DNA from: Paracoccaceae bacterium
GTDB lineage: Bacteria > Pseudomonadota > Alphaproteobacteria > Rhodobacterales > Rhodobacteraceae
DNA length: 64,000 nucleotides
Reading direction: 5' to 3'
Assembly: GCA_024642725.1 (NCBI GenBank)
Contig: JAHEAO010000003.1
Location: forward strand, 38,969 to 102,968
Part shown: positions 61,629 to 63,122 of the stretch, piece after piece
How positions within the stretch are numbered: the stretch's first letter is position 1
Layout of the letters: the number at the start of each line of letters is the position of its first letter
Made by a program: the position numbers and the translations under genes
Notes under the pieces: model-generated
Databases searched by the model: none
What the model saw: the letters and a program-made list of their open reading frames with translations, nothing else
What the model was told of the DNA's origin: nothing

Positions 61629-62273
61629 GTGAAGCAGACACAGCAACCCGCCGTCGTACGTGTGATCTGGGCCATACTCTTGGTTGCTGGGCTGTGGGCG
61701 CTTTTTCTGGGCCGGTGGTCCGTCGGTTTCGTGGCTATTGCGACTTTCGTCGTCACCTTGCTGCCGGGTCCGTTGTTTGACCGGCTGGACATCAAGTTGC
61801 CAACGAATTTCTTGGCCGCGATTGCTGTTTTCGCCTTCGCAACGCTGTTCCTCGGTGAAGTTTTGGATTTCTACGAACGGTTCTGGTGGTGGGACATCGC
61901 GCTCCACGGTGGCTCGGCGATCAGCTTTGGCCTTGTTGGTTTCCTGTTTGTTTTCTTCATGTTCGAAGGGAACAGGTTTGCTGCCCCGCCGATTGCTGTG
62001 GCTTTCGTTGCCTTCTGTTTCGCGGTCACGATCGGATGCGCATGGGAAATCTTCGAATTTGGGATGGATCAAATATTTGGCCTGAACATGCAGAAGACCG
62101 GACTCGTCGACACGATGTGGGATCTGATCGTGGATATGATCGGTGCCGCGATCGGCGCCACTGCGGGCTTCTTCTTTCTCAAGGGCCGGGAACTGGGCGG
62201 CTTGTCCCGAGTCATCGACGAATTCGTGTCAATGAACCGCAAGTTCTACCGTAAGCTGCGTAAACGGGGCTGA
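61629..62273 (+). CDS. YjdF/DUF2238-like membrane protein
   Basis: GTG start; WWWDIALHGGSAISFGLVGFLFVF; WEIFEFGMDQIFGLNMQ; DTMWDLIVDMIGAAIGA. Confidence 0.78.
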   Translation: MKQTQQPAVVRVIWAILLVAGLWALFLGRWSVGFVAIATFVVTLLPGPLFDRLDIKLPTNFLAAIAVFAFATLFLGEVLDFYERFWWWDIALHGGSAISFGLVGFLFVFFMFEGNRFAAPPIAVAFVAFCFAVTIGCAWEIFEFGMDQIFGLNMQKTGLVDTMWDLIVDMIGAAIGATAGFFFLKGRELGGLSRVIDEFVSMNRKFYRKLRKRG

Positions 62274-62279
62274 GGGGGA

Positions 62280-62446
62280 GGTGGCGGGACCACCACAGCC
62301 GTAGGGGTACGTAAATTCCCGAGGACCTGCACATACAGGTGGGCGCCAGGTAAGTGGACCAGGGTCCAAACAGAGCCAGCTCCCTCGGATTTATTTAAGG
62401 CCACCGGAATTGGACCCCATCACGAGAAAGGCAGAACCCGCCACTA
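62280..62446 (+). ncRNA. candidate unannotated structured RNA / 5' leader
   Basis: Gene-free segment with GTGGCGGG/CCCGCCAC closing pair, GGGTCCAA/TTGGACCC, ACCTG-CACATA-CAGGT and TGGACC-AG-GGTCCA. Confidence 0.35.
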
Positions 62447-62619
62447 AGCAACATAGGCTTGTGCCGACCTTGCTACAAGAGGACAACTTGGTCGAGACCG
62501 ACCGCATCCGCCAGACAAATTGAATGCTCCGATGGAGAGGCGGAAGCGATATTTTTTGCATTGAAGCCTCGGACCGGGCTTCAAAGAAGAGGTCGGGGCT
62601 TTCTCGGCCCTTGCCAAAT

Positions 62620-62634
62620 GTTCACCTATTGTTC
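62620..62634 (+). promoter_or_regulatory. LexA (SOS) box, alphaproteobacterial type
   Basis: GTTCACCTATTGTTC = GTTC-N7-GTTC, ending 11 bp before the mmcB ATG. Confidence 0.8.
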
Positions 62635-62645
62635 ATGCTGTTGGG

Positions 62646-63122
62646 ATGAAGGATGAAGACTTCATCGCAGCGGCAAAACCGGGCCAGCTTCTGGCCCGTG
62701 GAGTCTGTCGGCATCTCTTGTCGCACAATTTCGCCGCGATCGAAGAATTTGTTCCTGATCGCGGTCTGAGAGTGGACGTGATTGGCCTCGGACCCAAGGG
62801 CGAGATTTGGATCGTGGAATGCAAGTCCAGCCGGGTCGACTTTCAGTCTGACAACAAGTGGCAGGGCTATCTGCACTGGTGCGACCGCTATTTCTGGGCT
62901 GTTGACGAGGACTTCCCAGCCGAGCTTCTACCCGACGAAACTGGGTTGATCATCGCCGACAGCTATGACGCAGAGATTGTCCGAATGGGGCCGGAGATAC
63001 ATCTGGCGCCGGCCCGGCGCAAGGTTCTGACCCAGAAATTCGCACGTCATGCAGCGACGCGGTTGCACGCGTTGCGTCATCCCGGTGTCAGCGCGACTTG
63101 GGGTCCTTCTTCGGAGCCATAG
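62646..63122 (+). CDS. mmcB: MmcB-family DNA repair protein
   Basis: Nuclease-like core RVDVIGLGPKGEIWIVECKSSRVDFQSDNKWQGYLHWCDRYFWAV; LexA box upstream. Confidence 0.87.
   Translation: MKDEDFIAAAKPGQLLARGVCRHLLSHNFAAIEEFVPDRGLRVDVIGLGPKGEIWIVECKSSRVDFQSDNKWQGYLHWCDRYFWAVDEDFPAELLPDETGLIIADSYDAEIVRMGPEIHLAPARRKVLTQKFARHAATRLHALRHPGVSATWGPSSEP

Follow-up and report, generated by a model that had tools for sequence, protein, structure and literature searches.

The window, a 64,000-nt stretch of DNA from a Paracoccaceae bacterium, holds between the stop at 62273 and mmcB at 62646 a gap of about 370 bp (62274-62645) in which, as an earlier note on this DNA had remarked, there is no convincing ORF. 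The element at 62281-62444 within this gap is an ordinary 6S RNA, which adds one member to a well-known family. We are highly confident that it represents the sole ssrS (6S RNA) gene, located on the - strand, equipped with its own promoter, divergent from mmcB and forming the canonical 6S rod. This assignment is based on family membership, as seen by profile and by homology, together with the conserved structure, the strand, a conserved promoter motif and the single copy. The parts of the gene are collected in Table 1, in which the ends of the transcript are predictions from the position of the promoter and from the closing stem. A search of the - strand turned up no intrinsic terminator at the 3' end, which leaves this end unaccounted for. 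On the other side of the gap, an ORF of 214 aa (61629-62273, + strand), named yjdF in the earlier note, is convergent with the 6S gene and lies beside it in a few relatives only; searches of Pfam (E up to 0.001) and NCBIfam (E up to 1) returned nothing for it.

Table 1. Predicted features of the 6S RNA gene and its divergent neighbour (positions in the window)
Feature	Position	Strand	Remarks
6S RNA gene (ssrS)	62281..62444	-	~164-nt predicted transcript running from near 62444 (5') to near 62281 (3')
6S core	62283-62440	-	RF00013 45.0 bits; R1 160.2 bits
Closing stem, 5' strand GTGGCGGG	62437..62444	-	pairs with 62281-62288 (CCCGCCAC)
Closing stem, 3' strand CCCGCCAC	62281..62288	-	part of helix 1, alignment A2
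Closing stem, 5' arm, continued	62406..62434	-	CUGCC/GGUGG; CGU/ACG; AUUCC/GGAAU; helices in A2 and A3
Central bubble, 5' side, including likely product-RNA template GGUGGCCUUAA	62385..62405	-	conserved block in A3
Small hairpin ACCUG-UAUGUG-CAGGU, 3' strand of central bubble	62325..62340	-	99.2% paired in A3
Apical arm: GGG-A-GCUGG / CCUGGC-G-CCC and terminal stem-loop UUUGGACCCUGGUCCA	62341..62384	-	helices 4 and 5 in A3
-35 element, core TTG (in CTTGTA)	62476..62478	-	family promoter motif
-10 element TATGTT	62450..62455	-	family promoter motif; a few bases ahead of predicted start near 62444
mmcB, conserved divergent neighbour, outside the RNA gene	62646..63122	+	PF06319, E 1.9e-46

In a permissive Rfam scan of the region, the sole serious match was to RF00013 (6S RNA), at 62440-62283 on the - strand, covering model positions 1-187 of 187 with 45.0 bits (E=2.7e-7) and thereby falling 1.4 bits short of the gathering score of 46.4. 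At the default Rfam threshold, the whole window lists RNase P RNA and one tRNA and not the 6S RNA; the RNase P RNA is of class A (RF00010, 8974-9366, + strand, 287.2 bits). Such a sub-threshold score is usual for the group, since the RF00013 model found a 6S match in 52 of 61 genomes, the source genome included, and above the gathering score in 23 of them. Routine annotation relying on this cutoff thus leaves many 6S genes of the group unmarked. Using a family covariance model (R1), built from 36 same-family sequences with the window's own among them, the locus reached 160.2 bits and was again the single place in the source genome. Moreover, the window 6S aligns over its full length with same-family homologues that do exceed the gathering score (G003, G011, G012, G013, G017, G024, G025, G031 and G036). 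RF00013 had been named for checking in the earlier note, and on that note's own terms this confident match to a known family refutes the reading as a novel RNA. The other candidate named there, alpha_tmRNA (RF01849), gave no match at the locus by covariance model or ARAGORN, and tmRNA and the other Rfam families were ruled out as identity, having no match in the Rfam scans.

The score slightly under the gathering value could also be taken as a sign of a decayed or non-functional 6S copy, but we consider this very improbable: the locus is the sole Rfam 6S match in a genome that is 98.95% complete, its 160 bits rank high among the relatives scored with R1, and it has kept its promoter motif and almost all of its helices. 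Among the relatives, one same-family genome (G015, 98% complete) was negative with both the Rfam 6S model and R1. Another one (G009, 82% complete) carries two different 6S-like loci on contigs C260 and C266 (L040, L041), which represent either a true second copy or a mixed assembly.

The conserved structure of the 6S RNA was assessed with a list of 40 base pairs, hand-written from the window sequence, the Rfam structure and the RNAalifold consensus, and counted on two MAFFT sequence alignments, A2 (36 sequences) and A3 (75 distinct sequences from mmcB loci). In A2, 90.6% of the cells are paired and 15 of the pairs have changed on both sides, while none of 500 shuffles matched the observed percentage, the double changes or the covariation score, and slid registers drop pairing to 32-51%. 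The corresponding values in A3 are 88.5% and 14 pairs, and the covariation surpasses that of every one of 500 shuffles here too. As the structure was partly derived from the counted sequences, the percentage paired is favoured, and the changes on both sides carry more weight as evidence. The mmcB loci behind A3 were picked without reference to 6S; the 6S sequences in them were found by a model built from the first alignment, so that A2 and A3 are not wholly independent. The closing stem, the large central bubble and the apical arm of the 6S RNA are kept by covariation. Helix 1, which includes the base of the closing stem, is paired in 85.7% of the cells in A2, with six pairs changed on both sides. 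In A3 the closing stem is partly misaligned, and a slip of one base makes it appear broken; a check on the unaligned sequences gave helices of 5-13 pairs versus mostly 4-7 with the 5' side shuffled. In the apical arm, helix 4 is paired in all cells of A3 (100%) and helix 5 in 79.1%, with five pairs changed on both sides. The bubble hairpin ACCUG/CAGGU is nearly invariant in A3, hence it offers no covariation test. It shares bases with the Rfam pairing GGCC/AGGU, and both are nearly always possible; competition between overlapping pairings is known from the refolding of 6S RNAs.

All the repeats on which the earlier note had built its competing helices are present: GTGGCGGG at 62281 and CCCGCCAC at 62437, GGTCCA at 62363 with TGGACC at 62355 and 62411, ACCTG-CACATA-CAGGT at 62325-62340 and GGTGG-CGGGA-CCACC at 62280-62294. 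Three of the proposed pairings turn out to be parts of the 6S RNA: GTGGCGGG/CCCGCCAC forms the base of the closing stem, GGTCCA pairs with the TGGACC at 62355 in the apical stem-loop, and ACCTG/CAGGT makes up the small hairpin within the 3' strand of the central bubble. The remaining two find no support across relatives: GGGTCCAA/TTGGACCC is paired in 55.8% of the cells compared to 56.5% in shuffles, and GGTGG/CCACC in 74.1% compared to 80.2%. With neither excess pairing nor covariation over shuffles, both alternative helices were rejected as biological pairings.

The direction of the gene follows from the conserved G-U pairs, which break on the + strand and therefore indicate that the RNA is read from the - strand. 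GCUGG/CCUGGC is paired in 100% of the cells on the - strand versus 59-63% on the + strand, and CUGCC/GGUGG in 88-92% versus 62-63% (91.7% versus 63.2% in A3). This is in line with a motif, TTG-N20-TAnnT, found upstream on the - strand in 104 of 111 6S loci with a gap of always 20 nt, compared to 3 of 111 on the downstream side and 1.3 expected in shuffles. The motif is a family-specific pattern that was picked after inspecting the sequences and tested against these two controls, so its weight rests on the controls and the single fixed spacing rather than on the count. An earlier, overly strict promoter pattern occurred in 13 of 111 loci versus 9 in the control, and a generic sigma-70 scan detected no promoter. 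Given the positions of the -35 and -10 elements, transcription is predicted to start where GTGGCGGG begins.

These data also bear on the proposal that the + strand encodes a new ncRNA, or a switching leader, controlling mmcB via two mutually exclusive foldings. The earlier note was right that the gap encodes an ncRNA, with almost exact coordinates, and missed its strand and its membership in a known family, 6S. The + strand also shows inverted repeats and folds a little better than its shuffles do (z=-1.68; 17 of 200 shuffles fold equally well), whereas the - strand is unremarkable (z=-0.31). However, folding energy by itself is weak evidence on either strand, and the signal comes from homology and covariation. 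A + strand RNA would break the conserved G-U pairs, its alternative helices show no more pairing than shuffles do, the conserved promoter is oriented for the - strand, and mmcB lies 0.1-2.8 kb away in relatives, an ill fit for a leader. Since the 6S RNA points away from mmcB and the spacing varies, it is not a leader of this gene. The alternative pairings behind the proposed switch are not conserved across relatives, and we regard a + strand ncRNA or switch as next to impossible. The identification as 6S RNA clears away this false lead and puts a global transcription regulator on the map of the source genome.

The arrangement of the two genes is conserved among the relatives found by the mmcB protein, which are Rhodobacteraceae and similar. 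In 77 of 80 such loci (L070-L149), mmcB has a 6S match upstream of it, encoded on the other strand, and the remaining three showed no significant 6S match within the DNA examined around them. Conversely, among 35 same-family loci picked by 6S alone, mmcB occurs within ~3 kb in 25, always divergent. As mmcB is a DNA repair gene, one might speculate that the divergent placement reflects shared control from one intergenic region, e.g. under stress, which we judge to be unlikely; the spacing varies, at times leaving room for other genes between the two, and this suggests that the gene order was simply inherited.

6S RNA acts as a mimic of an open promoter: it binds the primary sigma-RNA polymerase holoenzyme and comes off again once a product RNA has been copied from it (PMC8414754; PMC11077062). 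By analogy, the ~164-nt RNA, folded into a canonical rod of closing stem, central bubble and apical arm, would bind the housekeeping sigma-RNA polymerase holoenzyme, and its build-up would repress housekeeping transcription. On recovery, the polymerase would use the bubble's 5' side to make a short product RNA in the + direction from ~62396-62397, and this synthesis would refold the 6S RNA and release the polymerase. From its known counterparts, we infer that the window 6S binds the polymerase, is controlled by growth phase and serves in making product RNA. In A3, GGTGGCC and TTAA show little or no variation at the expected place of the template, and judged by the motif described in PMC8414754, the GGTGGCC-TTAA block is the likely product-RNA template, with a predicted start at 62396 or 62397.

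Compared to the alphaproteobacterial 6S RNAs of RF00013, the window 6S has the full-length profile match, the closing stem, the central bubble with its 3'-strand hairpin and the apical arm in common, and it is also alike in its single copy and own promoter. In contrast, its core is 158 nt long, compared to 187 positions in the model, and its apical end is shorter. Its score falls under the gathering value, by 1.4 bits, and those of most same-family relatives fall under it too. Another close known system is the 6S RNA of Rhodobacter sphaeroides; the mmcB relatives of the source genome belong to the same broad group (Rhodobacteraceae). Work by Elkina et al. from 2017 on this 6S RNA (doi 10.1080/15476286.2017.1342933), cited in PMC8414754, reportedly deals, to go by its title, with product RNAs and a high-salt phenotype upon deletion.
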